DNA of 21,940 bases from positions 1-21,940 of the IMG/VR virus record IMGVR_UViG_3300044647_001196. One strand, 5' to 3'. Below are positions 5,244 to 21,751 of the stretch, piece by piece (the first letter of the stretch is position 1; each line of letters starts with the position of its first letter). The notes under the pieces are model-generated. The model searched no databases. It saw nothing but the letters and a program-made list of their open reading frames with translations, and was not told the origin of the DNA. The position numbers were made by a program, and so were the translations under genes. The stretch is from a virus.

Positions 5244-5372
5244 TTAATCGTTTTTAGGTTCGTGATATTTGTTATTCTTTTTTTCTTTCGGGGAATATGG
5301 CCCAAGAGATTCAGTCATCAGCAACAGGCCAAGACCTGTGCTGAGACAAAAGATTGCTATTGCTAAAACCAT
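5244..5372 (-). CDS. 42-aa single-TM peptide coupled to SSB
   Basis: Reading the minus strand from ATG 5372 gives a 42-residue peptide: hydrophobic residues 2-19 (VLAIAIFCLSTGLGLLLM), then TESLGPYSP, then a Lys/Asn-rich cytoplasmic-looking tail (KEKKNNKYHEPKND), ending at TAA 5244-5246. The start overlaps the end of the upstream gene by 10 bases and the stop is one base from the SSB start, so it exactly fills the space in the operon. This is good evidence that it is a real gene. The hydrophobic part could be a membrane anchor or uncleaved signal. The function is unknown; its place beside SSB might suggest membrane attachment of replication, but that is speculation. Confidence 0.6.
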   Translation of the reverse strand: MVLAIAIFCLSTGLGLLLMTESLGPYSPKEKKNNKYHEPKND

Positions 5373-5683
5373 AGTGAATCCTCCTCGATATCAGACTCGT
5401 AAGCCTCCATTAAAGTTTCAGAGAATAAGGTTTGAAGTTCAGATTTAGTACGTTCAAACAAGATAGCTGCCTCTTCGATTGTGACCGATTTGTTATAGTC
5501 AGTAATGAAGATGTCATCCAGTTCAAAATATGCGCTGTAATCAGGCTCTATTTGACATCCGTAGCTATCTCTTGAGCCTCTTTCCTCTTCGATGTATGTT
5601 CCGATTAGTTTTACATAAACTTCGTTTGTCGGGAAGTTGTCGCACTCCATAAAAATGCCTGTGCTAAATTTGTTGTTTGTCAT
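5363..5683 (-). CDS. Acidic hypothetical protein, first gene of the SSB unit (106 aa)
   Basis: A 106-residue protein with about 24 acidic against 7 basic residues, so strongly negative, without transmembrane segments or recognised motifs. The N-terminal half appears beta-rich (FSTGIFMECDNFPTNEVYVK then LIGTYIEEE), the C-terminal part helical (EEAAILFERTKSELQTLFSE). It is the first gene after promoter A, with a leader of only about 25 bases that carries the ACTACCAA element three bases before ATG 5683. It overlaps the 42-aa gene by 10 bases. Early expression plus strong acidity would suit a host-takeover or DNA-mimic protein, but nothing in the sequence proves this. Confidence 0.6.
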   Translation of the reverse strand: MTNNKFSTGIFMECDNFPTNEVYVKLIGTYIEEERGSRDSYGCQIEPDYSAYFELDDIFITDYNKSVTIEEAAILFERTKSELQTLFSETLMEAYESDIEEDSLWF

Positions 5684-5686
5684 AAA

Positions 5687-5696
5687 TTGGTAGTTT
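5687..5696 (-). promoter_or_regulatory. ACTACCAA leader element, ORF106 start (sRNA target candidate)
   Basis: On the minus strand the decamer AAACTACCAA ends three bases before ATG 5683. It lies in the roughly 25-base leader of the SSB unit. With the following U it gives 11 contiguous pairs with the loop of the hairpin RNA at 13155-13183. Confidence 0.6.
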
Positions 5697-5747: not shown

Positions 5748-7475
5748 TCACAGAATATTTTTTAAATTTATTTGCACACATCTGCCAATTAAACCCGAAC
5801 TGAATCGAGTAGTATTTCGCTTTGAGGCTCCAGTATGCCTCAAAAGTACAGTTGAATACGATATCGCCCAAGGTGTACGGCTTAAAATCATTTTAACCCA
5901 GGTCGATGTATTTAAAATCAGCAAATATTTTTCTTTGTTATCTTCCACTACTTTCAATCCTAATCGCATTAGCCTCTCGTTAGCTGAATTCTGTTTAATT
6001 TTGGCTTGTGGGTCATATTCTGAAGCATATTCGACCAACTCTCCAACTGTTACAGTTCCAATGAAATCTCCTTCGATGCGAGTTTCATTCTGTAGTATTG
6101 TTTGAAGGCATCTTTCTTCATCAGTCAAGTCAGCTGTTTGGTTAAATAGTCCTTTCATTTTCAAAAGTTCGACAGATTCATCATATGCCTGCTCTATTGT
6201 AACTACATCATCATTCCAGGTATGCCACCATCCACCTAATAGTGCGCCAAACTGATCACCAACCGCCCTATCATTTATTGTTTCTGCAATGACTTCAGTA
6301 AAAATAGCAATTGACTGCAAGATGTTCGGCACAAGATTAATTATACGAGCAATAAATCTTAAGCCAAAATCTTTTTTTATGACTTCTTTCTTCTTTTGGT
6401 TCAGGATGTTAAACTTTTCAGAATCTTGATGCTTTGCAAGTTCGAAGACGGTGAATCTTCTCTTGTCGCTGTCATTGACCAGTTGCGGATTGATACTCAC
6501 AAACAAGAAACAACTGCGAATAAAATAGTCCGTAGCTTTTCCATCCTTGCCGCCCTTGGGAATGGCAGGTGATTTCTCCGAACTTCCTGCTCTTGCCAAG
6601 GCAATGACTTCCTGCATTCTCCTTGCTGCATTCTCATCGTTGCCCTCAGATTCGTCAATCGTCACAGGCATAGCATCACTATTGAGTTTCTGTCTTATCG
6701 CTGCCTCTGTCGCTGCTGTTCCCTGAGCATTAATTGAAAACTCTCCTAAGACCTGGTGAATAATCTGTTCAAGTACATAGGTCTTTCCGTTGCCACGAGG
6801 GCCTGTAATCCAGCAATGAGGCCTCCAGGACAATGCTCCGCAAATCGGTGCTATTGCTAACCATCCTGCCAACATTTTACCATCCGCATCTGTTTGCCAA
6901 TTGAGTGAGCTTAATATTTTTGTAAGCAGAGAGCATTCGATTCTGTCCATCGATGCTTCTATCGGAATGCGGATGTTCTTTCGCATCTCATAAGTAAACT
7001 CCGTTTCAATACTGCCAAGGTTGTATCGAATCTTCTCGCTGAGTAACTGCATCCCGGAATGGAAGATAACTCTGTCAGATTCTTTCCAGGCTCCTCGGCC
7101 TCGGATATTCTGCAAGTCAAAATATCCAGCTTTATTACAAAGTTGTACTAAAATGTTGGAGATGTTCTCAGACTTTGCAAAAACTTCGTGATCCCAAAAC
7201 TCAAGTGGTGCCAATGCCGTAACGTGCTGCTTGGTAAACTTTCCTGTAGTGAATGCTAATATCGCATTACTTGTCTTTGAATAGAAGTAAAATCTTTGAG
7301 ATCTCGCTTCTGTATCCCATCCAAGTGGTTTGAAATAGCCACCTACAAAGCCTCGTGCATCAGTTGTAATAGAGTTTTCGGGTGCTGCCTCAGCTTTTGG
7401 TTTTCGCTTTCTTTTTGCTGGTGGTGGTGTTACATCTTCGGTATTGTTATCCCACTTAATTGGTAGTTTTGTCAT
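5748..7475 (-). CDS. AAA+ replicative helicase-like ATPase (575 aa)
   Basis: This is a large phage replication ATPase of the type often fused to or paired with a primase (DUF927/D5-like helicase group). The order is: a Lys/Pro-rich disordered N-terminus (16-36); a domain with YFKPLG...RFYFYS..AILAF and APLEFW (45-95); CNKAGYFD..NIRGRGAW (113-130); LAGWLAIAPICGALSWRPH (202-220); Walker A GPRGNGKT (225-232); Walker B VTIDESEG (271-278); and SDKRRFTV (336-343), likely sensor/arginine-finger region. The C-terminal RTPWA segment matches the family end, so the gene looks complete. No TOPRIM or primase motif is present, so priming must come from elsewhere. The start ATG 7475 overlaps the upstream stop (ATGA). 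Codons 3-6 contain the AAACTACCAA element. It probably unwinds DNA at the phage fork using host polymerase. Confidence 0.75.
   Translation of the reverse strand: MTKLPIKWDNNTEDVTPPPAKRKRKPKAEAAPENSITTDARGFVGGYFKPLGWDTEARSQRFYFYSKTSNAILAFTTGKFTKQHVTALAPLEFWDHEVFAKSENISNILVQLCNKAGYFDLQNIRGRGAWKESDRVIFHSGMQLLSEKIRYNLGSIETEFTYEMRKNIRIPIEASMDRIECSLLTKILSSLNWQTDADGKMLAGWLAIAPICGALSWRPHCWITGPRGNGKTYVLEQIIHQVLGEFSINAQGTAATEAAIRQKLNSDAMPVTIDESEGNDENAARRMQEVIALARAGSSEKSPAIPKGGKDGKATDYFIRSCFLFVSINPQLVNDSDKRRFTVFELAKHQDSEKFNILNQKKKEVIKKDFGLRFIARIINLVPNILQSIAIFTEVIAETINDRAVGDQFGALLGGWWHTWNDDVVTIEQAYDESVELLKMKGLFNQTADLTDEERCLQTILQNETRIEGDFIGTVTVGELVEYASEYDPQAKIKQNSANERLMRLGLKVVEDNKEKYLLILNTSTWVKMILSRTPWAISYSTVLLRHTGASKRNTTRFSSGLIGRCVQINLKNIL
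7460..7469 (-). promoter_or_regulatory. ACTACCAA element inside codons 3-6 of the helicase gene
   Basis: The minus strand reads AAACTACCAA beginning at nucleotide 7 of the helicase coding sequence (residues K-L-P). With the next U this gives 11 contiguous pairs to the loop of the 13155-13183 hairpin, within the footprint of an initiating ribosome. Because it is coding, part of the match may be coincidental. Confidence 0.45.
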
Positions 7476-8411: not shown

Positions 8412-9012
8412 TTTTTCTGATAGTTCTTTTAAGTTTTTGTAATGCTCTGATTGTTTTCTTCAGTTCTTCAGGGTATTTATGAATAGCATTAAGCTTCATA
8501 TTTTCTCCTTTGCTAATGAGCATCAAATTGTTAATGTCATATTTGTTCAGTAATGGATTTATTACTCTTAATATGCTTCCTTTTGGTATCTTTCCGTAGG
8601 CTTCTTCCCAAATAAGAATCTCTTTTCGAATCCATTTTCTATCTGCCACCTTAACAAGTAAAAAACCATCTTTGTTATCTATCCTGGTATCTCCTACTTG
8701 TTTTGTATTATGAGGCTTTTGCCCTTTCTTGAAGCTTGTCGCATTTGGGCCCATAAAGCCTTTTTTCCCTTTGTTCCAGGTATCATTACCTTTTTTGTAT
8801 CTCGTTGCAGCACCGTACTTTCTTAATCTATCAGCTTCTAAACTCAGAAGGTAGTCAATAAACTCAGGAGTTTTTTTAATTCCGTGAGTGTATGCCTGTC
8901 CATAAATTGAAGAGGCTGACCTGTTCAATATATTGCACAATTCATCTGTGCGAGTATGAGGATACAACTCTCGCAATATCCTCATCTCACCTTCAGTCCA
9001 TTTACGCTTCAT
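8398..9012 (-). CDS. HNH-like DNA-binding protein with degenerate active site (204 aa)
   Basis: The N-terminus (residues 3-45, KWTEGEMRILRELYPHTRTD...SASSIYGQA) is a SANT/Myb or HTH-like DNA-binding domain. Residues 74-165 resemble the phage HNH endonuclease module (KKGNDTWNKG, RIDNKDGFLLVKV, IWEEAYGKIPKGS, NNLMLIS). However the His expected before the IWEE helix (kHrl.WE) is Glu131, and the D-G-N of the second half is replaced by NPLLN (152-156), so cleavage may be lost. The start is chosen at ATG 9012 because the domain begins there and the overlap with the upstream gene is a normal 11 bases; a TTG at 9147 would overlap it by 146. It could be a domesticated homing-endonuclease relative acting as a DNA-binding factor. 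Confidence 0.65.
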   Translation of the reverse strand: MKRKWTEGEMRILRELYPHTRTDELCNILNRSASSIYGQAYTHGIKKTPEFIDYLLSLEADRLRKYGAATRYKKGNDTWNKGKKGFMGPNATSFKKGQKPHNTKQVGDTRIDNKDGFLLVKVADRKWIRKEILIWEEAYGKIPKGSILRVINPLLNKYDINNLMLISKGENMKLNAIHKYPEELKKTIRALQKLKRTIRKNGKK

Positions 9013-9199
9013 CCTTAGCTCTTTTGAGATAGTAAACAGCTTCTTCGATAATAACTTTAAGGCTGCCCAACTGTGCGTGTGGTTTATACTCTTCACTGAC
9101 AGCAACCATGTCAGCAGTTTGTTTTGAGCGTTCCATTGCAGTTTCAAGTTGTTTCAATGCCTGATCAATGCAGAACTCCACATAAGTGTGATTTTTCAT
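9002..9199 (-). CDS. Small hypothetical protein, first gene of promoter B unit (65 aa)
   Basis: A 65-residue helical protein (TYVEFCIDQALKQLETAMER then VIIEEAVYYLKRAKDEA) with no recognised motif. It is the first gene downstream of promoter B; its leader of about 33 bases carries the ACTACCAA element three bases before ATG 9199. It overlaps the HNH-like gene by 11 bases. Confidence 0.6.
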   Translation of the reverse strand: MKNHTYVEFCIDQALKQLETAMERSKQTADMVAVSEEYKPHAQLGSLKVIIEEAVYYLKRAKDEA

Positions 9200-9202
9200 A
9201 AC

Positions 9203-9212
9203 TTGGTAGTTT
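9203..9212 (-). promoter_or_regulatory. ACTACCAA leader element, ORF65 start (sRNA target candidate)
   Basis: On the minus strand AAACTACCAA ends three bases before ATG 9199, the same spacing as at 5687-5696. It offers 10 contiguous pairs with the loop of the 13155-13183 hairpin. Confidence 0.6.
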
Positions 9213-9269: not shown

Positions 9270-10888
9270 TACTTATTGTAACTTTTTTTAAAATTATTTT
9301 TGTTTTCGACTTTTTTCCAGCTGTAGAATGAGTTCCAGGCCTTGTCGATTGCAGACTGAAAATCTGTTTCGCAAAGTGTTGTAGCGTTGATTTTATATTT
9401 GTTATTTATTGTTTTTACAAAATCCATAATTTCTTTTATTAACAATTTCTCTTTCATAAATGGTTCTAATTTTTTATTAGCATCTTTAACTTCTTTCAAT
9501 ACCTTAGCTTGAAAAACGTGTTTAACCCAGTAGTCTTGACGGCCTTTTTGCTCTTTAAATTGCCATAATTCTTCCAATGTTATACATTCCCATTGTTCTT
9601 TTGGCTTAGGCCCTTGCTGCATATTCAAGAAATCATCTAAAGACCTATTATCTTTGACAGCAACAGCATTCTCAATCGTTTTTTGTTCTCTCTCCTTTCC
9701 CTCCGGTATCAATCCGCATTCAGGGCAGCACTCCTCTGTCTTCTCAAAAACAGCATAACAGCCTTGGCAAACATTGTAGCTATCTTCGACTTCGTTCTTC
9801 TTTTTATTTTTCTTCTTGATGCCAGTCAAATCCCATACACGAGGTGTCAATGGATGCTTATGTCTTGCCATATTGTTAACGTGATCCAGGATGATGCACT
9901 TGTCTTTCCCGGCACAAGGTCTCAATCCTCTGCCGACTATCTGCAAATACAGACTGAGCGATGCCGTTGGTCTGAGCATACCTACTACAGCAACAGCAGG
10001 AATGTCTGTTCCCTCGCTGATCAGGTTACAAAACGTAACCACCTGGATAGTTCCATCCGCAAGACCTTTGAATATTCTATCAACTTCCTCATCTTTTTGC
10101 TCTCCGTGAACTGCCTCAGATGTGTATCCTGCATTCCGAAAAGTTTTTGCCATCTCCTGTGCGTGATGGATGGTGGAGCAGGAATAGATTGCAGGCTCAC
10201 CATCAGCAAGTCTTCTGTATTCCTTAACTATGTCTCCGCAAATCGCAATATCTGTCATTACATCAGATATTTCTCCCAGGTCATATTCTCCAAAATTGTT
10301 TTGCTTTAAGTTATCCAAAGCTTCAATCTTTTTGAACATATAATATGCCGGCATAACAAGATTACCCATCTTAATCAGTTCTGCTATCGGAGGCCCAAGT
10401 ACCATCTGTTGAAACATATCTCCAAGACCTTTGCCATCCAGTCTCCAAGGAGTGGCAGTAACACCAAGCATAAAAGTTTCTGAATAGTATTCCATTATTG
10501 CTTTCCAAGTTCCTGCACTTGCGTGATGGGCCTCATCAATAATAATAAGGTCAGGTCTCGGAACTTCATCCAATCTGTTCTTCAATGTCTGCACACTACA
10601 AACCTGTGCCGGGTGTTGGTAGTTTTTTTTGTGTCCTCCTGCAATAATTCCGTGTTCCAAGTTATACTTATTGCATCGCTCAGAAATTTGTCTCACAAGG
10701 TTCTTTTTATGCACCAGGAAGAATACTTTCTTGTTTCGGCTCATCGCCTGCTCTGCGATATGAATGAAAGTTTCAGTTTTTCCTCCACCAGTAGGAAGCA
10801 CAAACAATACTCTTTTGCTTCCTTGCTTGAAATGCCCTCGAATAGAATCTACTGCATCGGACTGGTATGGTCTAAGAGTTACGCTCAT
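9266..10888 (-). CDS. RadD-like superfamily 2 DNA helicase (540 aa)
   Basis: A DEAH-box SF2 helicase with RadD-type layout, probably unwinding or remodelling recombination and replication intermediates. Visible motifs: Q-like RPYQSDAV (6-13), Walker A PTGGGKT (32-38), DEAH (118-121), motif III TAT in GVTATPWR (about 141-148), and motif VI QIVGRGLRP (about 308-316). A four-Cys zinc-ribbon (C-x2-C...C-x2-C, CQGCYAVF...CCPECG) follows at about 374-395. The C-terminal third is Lys-rich and helical. I take ATG 10888 (MSVTLRPYQ) as start; a TTG nine codons upstream adds a basic extension. It overlaps the HTH gene by 17 bases, so both form one unit from the divergent promoter. One internal AAACTACCAA occurs near codon 88. 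Confidence 0.85.
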   Translation of the reverse strand: MSVTLRPYQSDAVDSIRGHFKQGSKRVLFVLPTGGGKTETFIHIAEQAMSRNKKVFFLVHKKNLVRQISERCNKYNLEHGIIAGGHKKNYQHPAQVCSVQTLKNRLDEVPRPDLIIIDEAHHASAGTWKAIMEYYSETFMLGVTATPWRLDGKGLGDMFQQMVLGPPIAELIKMGNLVMPAYYMFKKIEALDNLKQNNFGEYDLGEISDVMTDIAICGDIVKEYRRLADGEPAIYSCSTIHHAQEMAKTFRNAGYTSEAVHGEQKDEEVDRIFKGLADGTIQVVTFCNLISEGTDIPAVAVVGMLRPTASLSLYLQIVGRGLRPCAGKDKCIILDHVNNMARHKHPLTPRVWDLTGIKKKNKKKNEVEDSYNVCQGCYAVFEKTEECCPECGLIPEGKEREQKTIENAVAVKDNRSLDDFLNMQQGPKPKEQWECITLEELWQFKEQKGRQDYWVKHVFQAKVLKEVKDANKKLEPFMKEKLLIKEIMDFVKTINNKYKINATTLCETDFQSAIDKAWNSFYSWKKVENKNNFKKSYNKY

Positions 10889-11060
10889 CTTCCGCTTTTT
10901 TAAGTTCCTGCTCAATCTTTTGAAGTAATTCTAATGTGTGTGGCTCTTTTCTGCTCCAATGGTCTAACGTAGTTCTGTGAATTCCTGTTCTGTTACATAG
11001 TTCGGAGATACTCATCCCGATCTTGTTTGCTCGCTCTTTGATTTTTAGGTAAGTCTTCAT
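10872..11060 (-). CDS. Cro/CI-like HTH regulator (62 aa)
   Basis: A 62-residue protein that is little more than a helix-turn-helix: IKERANKIGMSISELCNRTG followed by IHRTTLDHWSRKEP, with the recognition helix at about 26-36, and an acidic/basic C-terminal helix. Small Cro-type or MerR/XRE-like phage regulators have this size and bind short palindromes as dimers. It is divergent from the exonuclease gene; a palindromic operator lies between them and over its own promoter, so it is the best candidate to bind the palindromes at 5720, 9246 and 11106 and to autoregulate. The binding target is inferred from proximity only. It overlaps the downstream helicase gene. Confidence 0.7.
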   Translation of the reverse strand: MKTYLKIKERANKIGMSISELCNRTGIHRTTLDHWSRKEPHTLELLQKIEQELKKAEDERNS

Positions 11061-11099
11061 TTTTTTTAAGTTTTAAGAAAAAAATATTATACAATGATG

Positions 11100-11107
11100 C
11101 AAAAGTA
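11100..11107 (-). promoter_or_regulatory. Leftward promoter box for HTH-helicase unit
   Basis: The minus strand reads TACTTTTG, a perfect TAnnTTTG box, about 40 bases before ATG 11060. No good TTG box is seen 19 bases upstream, so it may be weak or need activation. It overlaps the left end of operator C. Confidence 0.5.
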
Positions 11108-11121
11108 ATATAATTATATTA
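11106..11121. promoter_or_regulatory. AT palindrome operator C (perfect 16-bp, divergent promoters)
   Basis: TAATATAATTATATTA is a perfect palindrome lying between and touching both TAnnTTTG boxes of the divergent promoters (minus-strand box 11100-11107, plus-strand box 11120-11127). A dimer bound here would block both the regulator gene and the recombination genes. Confidence 0.65.
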
Positions 11122-11127
11122 TCTTTG
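11120..11127 (+). promoter_or_regulatory. Promoter C (rightward, recombination unit), TAnnTTTG box
   Basis: TATCTTTG matches TAnnTTTG exactly. The expected TTG box about 19 bases upstream is replaced by ATG/TGC, so this promoter may be weaker than A and B. Transcription would start near 11133, giving a leader of about 30 bases that ends in ACTACCA at the start codon. Confidence 0.6.
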
Positions 11128-11155
11128 TGTAACAATTCGTTAAAATTTTAAAAAT

Positions 11156-11165
11156 AACTACCAAT
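11156..11165 (+). promoter_or_regulatory. ACTACCAA element overlapping exonuclease start codon
   Basis: AACTACCAAT runs into the ATG (11164-11166), so its last two bases are the A and U of the start codon. It gives 10 contiguous pairs to the loop of the 13155-13183 hairpin and would cover the initiation codon itself. Confidence 0.6.
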
Positions 11166-11928: not shown

Positions 11929-12264
11929 ATGGAAAAATTATATTTAGGAATTGGAGATGGAGATGTTCAAACATTTGAATTTAAAACTCCATATGATTTA
12001 ATAGATTATCTTATTGAAATTCAAGATTCATTTAAAAATATTGTTTGGCTTTTTTGTTTAGAAAATGAAATTTTTATATCTGAAAGCTTTGATACTTTTT
12101 TTACTTTTATAAGAGAATATATTGGAGCAGAAAATGAAAGCGAATTAGATTTAGAATATGCTGATATTAGTGAATATTATTTACAAGAATATCAAAGTTA
12201 TGAAGATGCTTATTCAGTTGCATTGGAGATGAGAGAAGGCAATAAATTACAATTTAATAAATAA
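11929..12264 (+). CDS. Strongly acidic AT-rich hypothetical protein (111 aa)
   Basis: An inserted-looking gene between the exonuclease and the annealing protein, a pair normally adjacent. It has about 25 acidic and 7 basic residues (net charge near -18), many Tyr and Phe (EYIGAENESELDLEYADISE), and no recognised domain. Its codons are plainly more AT-rich than those of its neighbours, with almost all third positions A or T, suggesting recent transfer. Its size, charge and position as an accessory gene suit a DNA-mimic or anti-defence protein, but no specific similarity is recognised. Start ATG 11929 lies nine bases after the exonuclease stop. Confidence 0.65.
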   Translation: MEKLYLGIGDGDVQTFEFKTPYDLIDYLIEIQDSFKNIVWLFCLENEIFISESFDTFFTFIREYIGAENESELDLEYADISEYYLQEYQSYEDAYSVALEMREGNKLQFNK

Positions 12265-12270
12265 CTACCA
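12263..12270 (+). promoter_or_regulatory. Short ACTACCA element before annealing-protein start
   Basis: AACTACCA ends two bases before ATG 12273 in the gap between ORF111 and the annealing-protein gene. Only 8 bases match the hairpin loop complement, so it is a weaker site than the others, but a second full copy follows inside the gene. Confidence 0.45.
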
Positions 12271-12272
12271 CA

Positions 12273-12800
12273 ATGTCAAACATCACAAAACTACCAACAT
12301 TCCAGGAACTGATCACAGATTCTGAAGACAGCCTAAAGCAAAATGCACTAACTGTACTGCTAAATCAAGACCCTCCGAAGACTTGGTTAAGCGAACATCC
12401 AATGATAAAAGGCTATAAATATTTAGCAATCGAGAAAATTGAGTACCTTTTAACACGAATTTTCACCAAATGGTGGGTAGAAGTAAAAAACGTTCAAGTA
12501 GTCGCAAACAGCGTTGTAGTCACGGTTAGGCTCTTTGTAACGAATCCAATCACAAACGAAATAATGTTCCAAGATGGCATCGGTGCAACAGCAATTCAAA
12601 CCGACAAAGGAGCAGGCGCAACTGATTGGAATGCAGTAAAGACCGATGGTGTACAGAAAGCTGCACCCGCAGCTGAGACCTATGCAATAAAAGACGCAGC
12701 AGAGAAATTTGGCAAGATTTTCGGCAGAGATGTGAGCAGAAAAACAACAATGGACTATAGTCCGTTACTGAAAAAAAGCGATTTCAACGACCAAGTTTAG
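12273..12800 (+). CDS. Putative Rad52/Erf-like single-strand annealing protein (175 aa)
   Basis: A 175-residue protein whose C-terminal half has the Rad52/Erf/Sak pattern: a beta sheet (VQVVANSVVVTVRLFVTN), a G-x-G loop (DGIGATAIQTDKGAGA), then a long helix with AAPAAETYAIKDAAEKFG and KIFGRDVSR, the counterpart of the A-x-x-x-A-x-K-D-A-x-x-x-x-G helix of Rad52-type annealers. Together with the RecE-like exonuclease upstream it would promote strand annealing of phage DNA ends. It is the last gene before a terminator. Assignment to Rad52/Erf superfamily is by pattern and context; RecT or Redbeta are less likely given the short length. It carries AAACTACCAA at nucleotides 16-25 of the coding sequence. 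Confidence 0.65.
   Translation: MSNITKLPTFQELITDSEDSLKQNALTVLLNQDPPKTWLSEHPMIKGYKYLAIEKIEYLLTRIFTKWWVEVKNVQVVANSVVVTVRLFVTNPITNEIMFQDGIGATAIQTDKGAGATDWNAVKTDGVQKAAPAAETYAIKDAAEKFGKIFGRDVSRKTTMDYSPLLKKSDFNDQV
12288..12297 (+). promoter_or_regulatory. ACTACCAA element in codons 6-9 of annealing-protein gene
   Basis: AAACTACCAA at nucleotides 16-25 of the coding sequence (residues K-L-P-T) can pair with the hairpin loop for 10 bases within the initiating ribosome footprint. Together with 12263-12270, two elements flank this start codon. Confidence 0.45.
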
Positions 12801-12819: not shown

Positions 12820-12852
12820 AGAGTGCCTTATATCGGGGCACTCTTTTTTTTT
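12820..12852 (+). terminator. Rho-independent terminator after recombination unit
   Basis: An 8-bp stem (AGAGTGCC 12820-12827 with GGCACTCT 12837-12844), a 9-base loop and a T9 run (12844-12852) lie 20 bases after the annealing-protein stop. Confidence 0.85.
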
Positions 12853-13089
12853 GCCCTGTAACAGGATTTTTTTTTGTAACGCTATCTGTTTCATATAACT
12901 TATTGATTCTCAATTCGTGTAACAATGTAACAGATGTAACGGGAAAATATATATATATATAAGAGAATTTATTATTGTGCTATATGTGTAGGTATATTAA
13001 TGTTACATCCGTTACATTATTATAATTATATTATTATTAAGTAGTTAGGTGTAACAAAATTGTGTTACATACTTGTTACGCTTGTTACA
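12853..13089. repeat. Array of 11 GTAAC/GTTAC repeats around an AT tract: candidate origin or pac region
   Basis: This non-coding stretch has GTAAC at 12858, 12876, 12919, 12927, 12936 and 13051, and GTTAC (the same site on the other strand) at 13002, 13011, 13064, 13075 and 13084. Several neighbours are 8-9 bases apart (12919/12927/12936, 13002/13011, 13075/13084). Sites on the left point one way and most on the right the other, around a 15-base alternating AT tract (12947-12961). Repeated inverted iterons plus an AT-rich unwinding tract resemble a replication origin. Alternatives are a TerS-binding packaging site, because terS follows, or activator sites for the late promoter, whose upstream box abuts the last repeat. 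Confidence 0.6.
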
Positions 13090-13121
13090 TTTGATTTAAG
13101 TAAAAAAAAAACATATTTTTG
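13090..13121 (+). promoter_or_regulatory. Promoter L (rightward, hairpin RNA and late operon)
   Basis: TTTG (13090-13093), 20 bases including an A-run, then TATTTTTG (13114-13121), a close match to the Bacteroidota consensus. Transcription would start near 13127. The upstream box follows the last GTTAC repeat (13084-13088) by one base, so a protein bound to the repeats could control it. Confidence 0.7.
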
Positions 13122-13126
13122 CAGTG

Positions 13127-13225
13127 CTTTTTAGCAGGTTTCAGTTTGTCCATGGGGGAAGGTTATTGGTAGTTTCCTTCCCCAATTTTAAAAATCTTCG
13201 TTTTAAGACACTTTTTTTTCTTTTT
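13127..13225 (+). ncRNA. Candidate phage small RNA / leader with anti-ACTACCAA hairpin loop
   Basis: Directly downstream of promoter L lies an RNA-like stretch with an 8-bp GC-rich hairpin (GGGGAAGG 13155-13162 with CCTTCCCC 13176-13183). Its 13-base loop (13163-13175, TTATTGGTAGTTT) is the reverse complement of the ACTACCAA elements near early-gene starts. The hairpin is not followed by a T-run, so it is not an ordinary terminator. A weak stem and T-rich stretch at 13190-13225 might end the RNA; both ends given here are estimates. No open reading frame is present (the ATG at 13152 meets a stop after six codons). It could instead be only the 5' leader of the terS-terL mRNA. Confidence 0.5.
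13155..13183 (+). other. GC-rich hairpin exposing the anti-leader loop
   Basis: The stem GGGGAAGG/CCTTCCCC is the most GC-rich inverted repeat in an otherwise AT-rich region. Loop bases TTGGTAGTTT (13166-13175) are exactly complementary to AAACTACCAA. Confidence 0.75.
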
Positions 13226-13233
13226 GATAGTAG

Positions 13234-13273
13234 AGTACCACTTTAGAAAGATAATTGAATGTAGGTACTAAAG
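13234..13273. repeat. Inverted repeat in terS leader
   Basis: AGTACC (13234-13239) pairs with GGTACT (13264-13269), and CTTTAG (13241-13246) with CTAAAG (13268-13273). The two pairings overlap on the right arm and exclude each other. It could be an alternative-structure leader or a protein site. The rest of 13184-13316 shows T-rich and A-rich DNA but no further promoter consensus. Confidence 0.3.
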
Positions 13274-21125: not shown

Positions 21126-21751
21126 TGAAACAGTTTCAACAGATACTTAAAGACAGAGGCTACTATTCCGGTAATATCGATGGCATTATCGGGCCATTAA
21201 GCCTTACAGGAGCAAAGCAATGGATTGATGCAGAGATGGACAGACGTGGATGGGTGAAACCAGTCAATGACCTTGTATGGATTAGGACAGACCAAAGCTT
21301 CGACAATAAGTTTGCAGATTACGTTGTCAGATTTAACAATCGGATAGCTGACATGATTATGACCTGCTCAACCACTCCAGGAGATTACATCGTTTTTAAT
21401 CCGCTAACGGTTGGCGGCATTACAGGTAGCGCGGTTGCCTGCGAACAACAAGTTATCGGTTCGCATAAGTTTGTTACTTCGGGCAATTGGAAAAGCCTTT
21501 GGTTGAATGCTCCGTATTTCTTCCAGGCAGGTGCAATAGAAATTTATCGGGATGCCAACAAAGACAGAAAGCTTGACAAGGCGGTAAAAACAAAGGGTTG
21601 GTACGGCATCAACTTTCATCGGGGTGGATGGTTGGCAAATGTAGATGGATGGTCAGCAGGTTGCTTGGTAGTTCCGGACAAACAATGGTTTGAAGCTATC
21701 AAAATCTTCCAGGCAAACCAACTTATTAACTTTACACTAATAGAACTATAA
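21125..21751 (+). CDS. Endolysin/L,D-transpeptidase-like cell-wall enzyme (208 aa)
   Basis: Residues 1-30 (QFQQILKDRGYYSGNIDGII, then GPLSLTG) match the start of a peptidoglycan-binding domain 1 repeat. The C-terminal domain has GINFHRGG (His165) and WSAGCLVVP (Cys180), the H...S-x-G-C signature of YkuD-type L,D-transpeptidase folds and of certain phage lysins. A peptidoglycan-active enzyme is therefore likely, with Cys180/His165 as catalytic pair; a virion-associated lysin is possible because it sits between a baseplate gene and the tape measure, not in the holin cassette at 4152-4713. The TAATG junction with the next gene couples translation. The fold is inferred from motif only. Confidence 0.7.
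   Translation: MKQFQQILKDRGYYSGNIDGIIGPLSLTGAKQWIDAEMDRRGWVKPVNDLVWIRTDQSFDNKFADYVVRFNNRIADMIMTCSTTPGDYIVFNPLTVGGITGSAVACEQQVIGSHKFVTSGNWKSLWLNAPYFFQAGAIEIYRDANKDRKLDKAVKTKGWYGINFHRGGWLANVDGWSAGCLVVPDKQWFEAIKIFQANQLINFTLIEL

Follow-up and report, generated by a model that had tools for sequence, protein, structure and literature searches.

The DNA analysed here, hereafter the window, is a 21,940-nucleotide stretch (positions 1 to 21,940 of IMG/VR record IMGVR_UViG_3300044647_001196) and represents a 21.9-kb fragment of a tailed phage. Its left part carries the portal gene and further genes on the + strand. A minus-strand early block encodes SSB (named from its sequence only), a helicase/primase, a DEAD-type helicase, a Cro/C1-type HTH protein and small ORFs, and a plus-strand recombination operon encodes an exonuclease VIII-like protein, ORF111 and a Rad52-type annealing protein, after which come the terminase and following genes. 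The host is probably a member of the Bacteroidota, judging from the promoter type and from the related annealing genes found in two MAGs, one of Lacinutrix and one of a Bacteroidetes member. The nearest TerL and helicase matches in cultured phages are below 60% identity. At 11060-11164, the HTH gene and the exonuclease gene are divergent, and what looks like a shared operator, the palindrome AATATAATTATATT, overlaps the promoter of the exonuclease and is found again at that of ORF65, a similar word being present near ORF106.

The exonuclease-annealing operon is closed by a strong terminator at 12820-12844 (+), which sets it apart from the feature studied here, a GC-rich terminator-like hairpin at 13155-13183 (+). 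Since the early operon ends at this terminator and is followed by repeats, a promoter and then the hairpin, the sequence supports the view that the hairpin unit is a short transcription unit standing alone between the early operon and terS. The idea that the hairpin is the terminator of the exonuclease operon was rejected, as the operon has its own. The AT-rich region between the recombination operon and terS (12855-13090) contains many TGTAAC/GTTACA repeats; the repeat words differ in more distant relatives (GTGTACAC in L024, CCTTAA in L025-L029), and one reading is that it may be an origin or operator region of changing specificity.

The hairpin consists of an 8-bp stem, GGGGAAGG (13155-13162) and CCTTCCCC (13176-13183), enclosing the loop TTATTGGTAGTTT (13163-13175), whose last ten bases, TTGGTAGTTT (13166-13175), form the loop seed. 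It has the hallmarks of an intrinsic terminator, a GC-rich stem with a short U tract directly after it (13184-13189), which reads AATTTT in the window and CTTTTT or TTTTTT in relatives, and which is strong in L018 (CCTGTCCCTTTTTT); a simple terminator scan did not report the window hairpin, with its AATTTT and 13-nt loop. The Bacteroidota-type promoter announced in the preliminary description is indeed present at 13090-13121 (+) and has the form TTTG-N20-TATTTTTG, with TTTG at 13090-13093, a spacer of 20 and TATTTTTG at 13114-13121. Promoter and hairpin are separated in the window by a variable leader of about 30 nt. The predicted small RNA would thus span 13126-13189 (+) and measure about 61-73 nt, its 5' end being placed from the promoter and its 3' end from the hairpin and U tract. 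The covariance models of Rfam 15 gave no match at gathering score for the hairpin region, and a nucleotide search found the region in no cultured phage, returning chance matches only. Farther downstream, at 13203-13270 and upstream of terS, lies TTTAAGACACTTTTTTT followed by a GTACCACTTTaGAAAGATAATTG stretch. TTTAAGACACTTTTTTT was considered as the terminator of the RNA and rejected; because it occurs in many unrelated contigs, and similar stretches occur in a sister clade where the hairpin is absent (clade B, below), it is probably a DNA element, perhaps a packaging (cos-like) one.

Four genes have the exact complement of the ten-base seed, AAACTACCAA, at their starts, and two more start sites have shorter forms of it. 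On the minus strand, this tag lies 3 nt before the ATG of ORF106 (tag 5687-5696, gene 5363-5683), where it is conserved in 12 relatives, and 3 nt before the ATG of ORF65 (tag 9203-9212, gene 9002-9199), and it occupies nucleotides 7-16, that is codons 3-6 (K L P I), of the helicase/primase gene (tag 7460-7469, gene 5748-7475). On the plus strand, AACTACCAAT (11156-11165) overlaps the exonuclease ATG (11164), and an 8-base tag, AACTACCA (12263-12270), stands before the ATG (12273) of the annealing-protein gene, which contains a second tag, AAACTACCAA, at its nucleotides 16-25 (12288-12297); the latter is kept in L015-L017 and L028 and is replaced by CTT in others. On re-check, the hairpin and each of these sites proved to have been correctly placed in the preliminary description. 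An additional exact copy had been overlooked: it lies at 10616-10625 (-), in the middle of the DEAD-type helicase gene, spans K-N-Y-Q codons and is kept as AACTACCA in L015-L017 and L028, the other relatives being without it. With this copy in mid-gene, it goes too far to assert that every site occupies a ribosome-binding position. At 21665-21674 there is also a 9/10 copy of the tag.

Contiguous pairing had been put at 10-11 bases in most cases, a figure to be amended for the exonuclease start, where the duplex is longer, with 13 contiguous pairs, G-U included, running through the AUG. The predicted duplexes cover or directly flank the AUG, and their energies are -17.9 kcal/mol for the exonuclease, -13.5 for ORF106, -13.1 for the helicase, -12.3 for ORF65 and -12.1 for the annealing gene. 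A short, accessible loop seed complementary to the start regions of several mRNAs, as expected of a trans-acting sRNA, is seen here.

Several controls bear on whether this loop is special. Allowing no more than one mismatch, the window has eight sites, among them the complement of the loop itself, against 2.3 expected, a number reached in 1 of 100 shuffles, and the reversed control pattern has no site in the window. When every 13-mer of the window was taken as a pseudo-loop, only copies of the same motif reached five genes with 10-base complementarity. The ranking of the loop by energy against shuffled loops is weakly significant, the mean of the best six being reached by 41 of 1000. The strength of the case is in the exact matches at starts and in conservation, rather than in the energy ranking. 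When hairpin loops were systematically compared with start regions, this hairpin came first in its own genome; among 166 loci without the hairpin signature no loop matched at least four gene starts at 8 bases, and the clade A loci (defined below) mostly gave 4-6 such matches, those loci being overlapping and not independent. A search rule follows, namely a hairpin loop antisense to several start regions, which singled out this hairpin among the loci examined. The matches listed by a scan of the viral collection for AAAACTACCAANNNATG are probably mostly due to chance.

Relatives were defined by queries with TerL, the exonuclease, the helicase and the annealing protein. They comprise clade A, about 19 window-like contigs of which about 14 cover the hairpin locus, and a sister clade B, in which the exonuclease is mostly 63-72% and the annealing protein 73-78% identical. 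The hairpin is present in all clade A contigs covering the locus, in 11 distinct sequence variants, and always lies about 65 nt downstream of the TANNTTTG promoter box. The -7 box (13114-13121 in the window) is TATTTTTG or TAAATTTG in 11 of 11 variants, and the -33 TTTG is not conserved. Absence of the hairpin from phages that retain the leader elements, which had been named as an observation that would speak against the proposal, was looked for in clade A: every record covering the locus has both. Taken together, these data support conservation of the hairpin unit along with the start-site tags across relatives, as judged from their sequences.

Three changes in the stem are informative. L012 has a compensated insertion (GGGGAAAGG/CCTTTCCCC), L018 and L019 have an A-U to C-G change (GGGACAGG/CCTGTCCC), and L014-L017 and L028 have a variant (GGGGGAAGG/CCTTCCTCC) with a G-U that pairs on the + strand alone, its counterpart on the - strand being A-C. 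The stem varies little inside the close group, so that the structural case rests on few stem changes; all members of that group retain the loop complement, with changes in the stem and the 5' part. When a covariance model was built with L018/L019 left out, it recovered both of them (E = 1.8e-5); in clade B and the more distant phages searched it detected no hairpin. In more distant relatives, the position immediately upstream of terS is taken by a plain terminator hairpin that lacks the loop complementarity.

The tags are conserved as well. Across clade A, the exonuclease, annealing, ORF106 and ORF65 genes retain AACTACCA at their starts and the helicase gene retains it in codons 3-5, except in L018/L019 and at ORF65 of L013 (AACTACAA); the genes taken as controls (SSB, HTH, DEAD-type helicase starts, terS and others) lack it in clade A. 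In longer relatives, the tag precedes four more genes, whose products start with MRDLAAIY, MSKVTVQK, MRTLFFIL and MKAILI, so that the tagged set includes replication and recombination genes plus genes of unknown function. Several tagged starts lie in mid-operon with no promoter directly upstream, which indicates that duplication of promoter cassettes does not account for the tag. Inside the helicase gene, the codons under the tag do not vary: K3-L4-P5 is AAA CTA CCA in 7 of 7 homologues compared, although a single codon is kept in just 3 of the 39 Leu columns and 2 of the 14 Pro columns that are invariant, and L4 is the only invariant Leu column fixed as CTA. By this sequence comparison, the helicase tag codons are frozen.

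The divergent pair L018/L019 offered a view of loop and targets that had both changed. Its loop is TTGTAGTTTAT, and its tags are ACTACAATG at the exonuclease, AAACTACTATG at the annealing gene and at an 82-aa ORF, and AAACTACCAA, unchanged, at the helicase. This loop has 7-base complementarity to the pair's own four starts, and the hairpin is again the best of its genome. However, equally many 7-base start matches are found for 25 of 675 background hairpins, and by energy the L018/L019 targets pair no worse with the loop of the other subclade. The co-variation between loop and leader elements that the preliminary description had proposed to look for is therefore suggestive rather than proven: loop and tags both differ and share 7-base pairing, but the cognate loop does no better than the other one and some background hairpins do as well at 7 bases.

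Clade B has its own shared start tag, AACTTCA(CA) (AACTTCAC), at the same position as the clade A tag. Apparently orthologous genes carry AACTACC in clade A and AACTTCA in clade B, and the apparent clade B counterpart of a small, secreted-looking clade A gene carries the clade B tag. In L074/L175 (contig IMGVR_UViG_3300042542_002782) and relatives, a tag AAAACTTCACACAATG was noticed on several early genes. Clade B contigs up to 43 kb long were scanned in full for a hairpin antisense to the clade B tag, and none was found. Either the tag is read in clade B by a different factor, or leader tags act directly in initiation; with no matching hairpin in clade B, such tags may serve a function in their own right. 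I am therefore less confident that the RNA explains the existence of the tag, though no less confident that the RNA can read it. Directly after the annealing gene stop, L175, L155, L157, L102, L156 and about 50 clade B loci also have a TATATTTG promoter followed by a structured RNA of some 100 nt, which has no Rfam match in the loci scanned. The loop of its 5' hairpin is complementary to the apical loop of its 3' terminator-like stem, and the two loops differ by subtype and stay complementary (GGCACTAC/GTAGTGCC, GGCTTCAC/GTGAAGCC, GCAACCAC/GTGGTTGC, GGTCTCAC/GTGAGACC). TGAAGTT, complementary to the clade B start tag, is present in the three members tested (L192, L077, L155).

The best explanation of the clade A data, and to my mind a rather probable one, is a trans-acting antisense RNA that carries its seed in the terminator loop and represses a set of early genes. 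An RNA of about 65 nt would be made from its own promoter and end in the intrinsic-terminator-like hairpin, whose loop (UUAUUGGUAGUUU) would serve as the seed. A run of 8-11 Watson-Crick pairs, or of 13 with G-U counted in the case of the exonuclease, would join the seed to the shared tag AACTACCA, just before or over the ATG, or inside the first nine codons, of the early genes for the exonuclease, the Rad52-type annealing protein, the helicase/primase, ORF106 and ORF65, and of at least four more in longer relatives. The duplex would occupy the 30S landing site and block translation initiation, so that one RNA would repress the whole set of replication, recombination and unknown genes. What the sequences show is the hairpin, its complementarity to the tags, their placement at starts, the conservation and the frozen codons; that the RNA is made, where it ends, that it represses and at what time are inferences from them. 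The suggestion in the preliminary description of an RNA produced late or on command finds neither support nor contradiction in the sequences. A wider proposal, which I put forward tentatively, is a RegA-style shutoff of early genes by a dedicated RNA, one loop reading a start-site address tag on about ten phage genes. Since the tag is genome-wide and clade-specific (AACTACC versus AACTTCAC), the address code appears to have been rewritten as a set between the clades, with another reader in clade B.

The clade B data are also what would be expected if the tag were a translation-start signal, or the site of a RegA-like phage RNA-binding repressor, the hairpin being merely a terminator with a loop derived from an inverted leader copy and the pairing not being the function: apparent orthologues have a different tag at the same position and no antisense hairpin accompanies it. 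Yet the tag is also intragenic, in the helicase and annealing genes, and the helicase codons are frozen, neither of which a leader signal needs; in addition, the loop complement persists in the close group as the stem and the 5' part vary. Leader tags were no more complementary than shuffles to the one 16S rRNA tested (from an unusual MAG), and 16S pairing was dropped as a candidate. On balance this explanation seems unlikely. An opposite flow of information, from early mRNAs to the late operon, would result if the late (terminase) operon had the hairpin as an attenuator in its 5' leader, with early mRNAs controlling read-through by pairing with the loop. The order promoter-hairpin-terS fits such an attenuator, and the stretch from the hairpin to terS shows no second consensus promoter; the plain terminator of the more distant relatives fits as well, but it is kept without loop complementarity, and loop pairing would not obviously unfold an 8-bp GC-rich stem, which makes attenuation quite improbable.

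The direction of the effect cannot be told from sequence, and the RNA might activate or stabilise the early mRNAs rather than repress them. However, pairing over or beside the AUG normally blocks initiation, and this is where the predicted duplexes lie; activation is accordingly given little credence. Finally, the hairpin is situated between iteron-like repeats and the small terminase gene, beside a possibly cos-like shared element, a setting in which it could be a packaging or replication signal acting as DNA, with no role as RNA. Against this, the tags on either strand are placed according to gene orientation and start codons, and the stem is maintained by a G-U pair that exists on one strand only, so that a DNA-level element is scarcely credible.

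If the antisense reading is correct, these uncultured Bacteroidota phages encode an RNA that, by way of one common address tag, controls genes of replication and recombination and could switch off the whole set at once. To my knowledge, post-transcriptional control by phages is hardly described in Bacteroidota. The prediction can be tested cheaply, with two plasmids in a Bacteroidota host. Literature searches, several of them narrow in scope, found no described RNA of this kind. The small RNAs sar of P22 and OOP of lambda are antisense to phage genes (PMC12197685), each to a single one (ant and cII, respectively), whereas the RNA predicted here would act in trans through short seeds on several genes. 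VpdS of VP882 and PreS of lambda are Hfq-dependent trans-acting sRNAs that act on phage and/or host mRNAs (PMC12197685); they belong to phages of Gammaproteobacteria and have host genes among their targets, whereas the present comparison covers phage genes only. In chemistry, the likeness is to the c4 antisense RNA of P1/P7, whose complementary sequence, probably in loops, is aimed at a ribosome-binding region and blocks translation (PMC12197685). Unlike c4, which targets ant and sets immunity, the predicted RNA ends in a terminator and would address at least five separate early genes bearing a shared tag; it is not classed as c4, since the defining c4 target, an antirepressor gene, is not among the targets identified (exonuclease, annealing protein, helicase and unknown ORFs). 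In regulatory role, the likeness is to RegA of T4: in addition to transcriptional switching, this repressor binds about 30 mRNAs at the AUG or immediately 5' of it and represses their translation (PMC3014915). RegA is a protein, which precludes assignment to that class; here the proposed reader would be an RNA that recognises its tag by base pairing.
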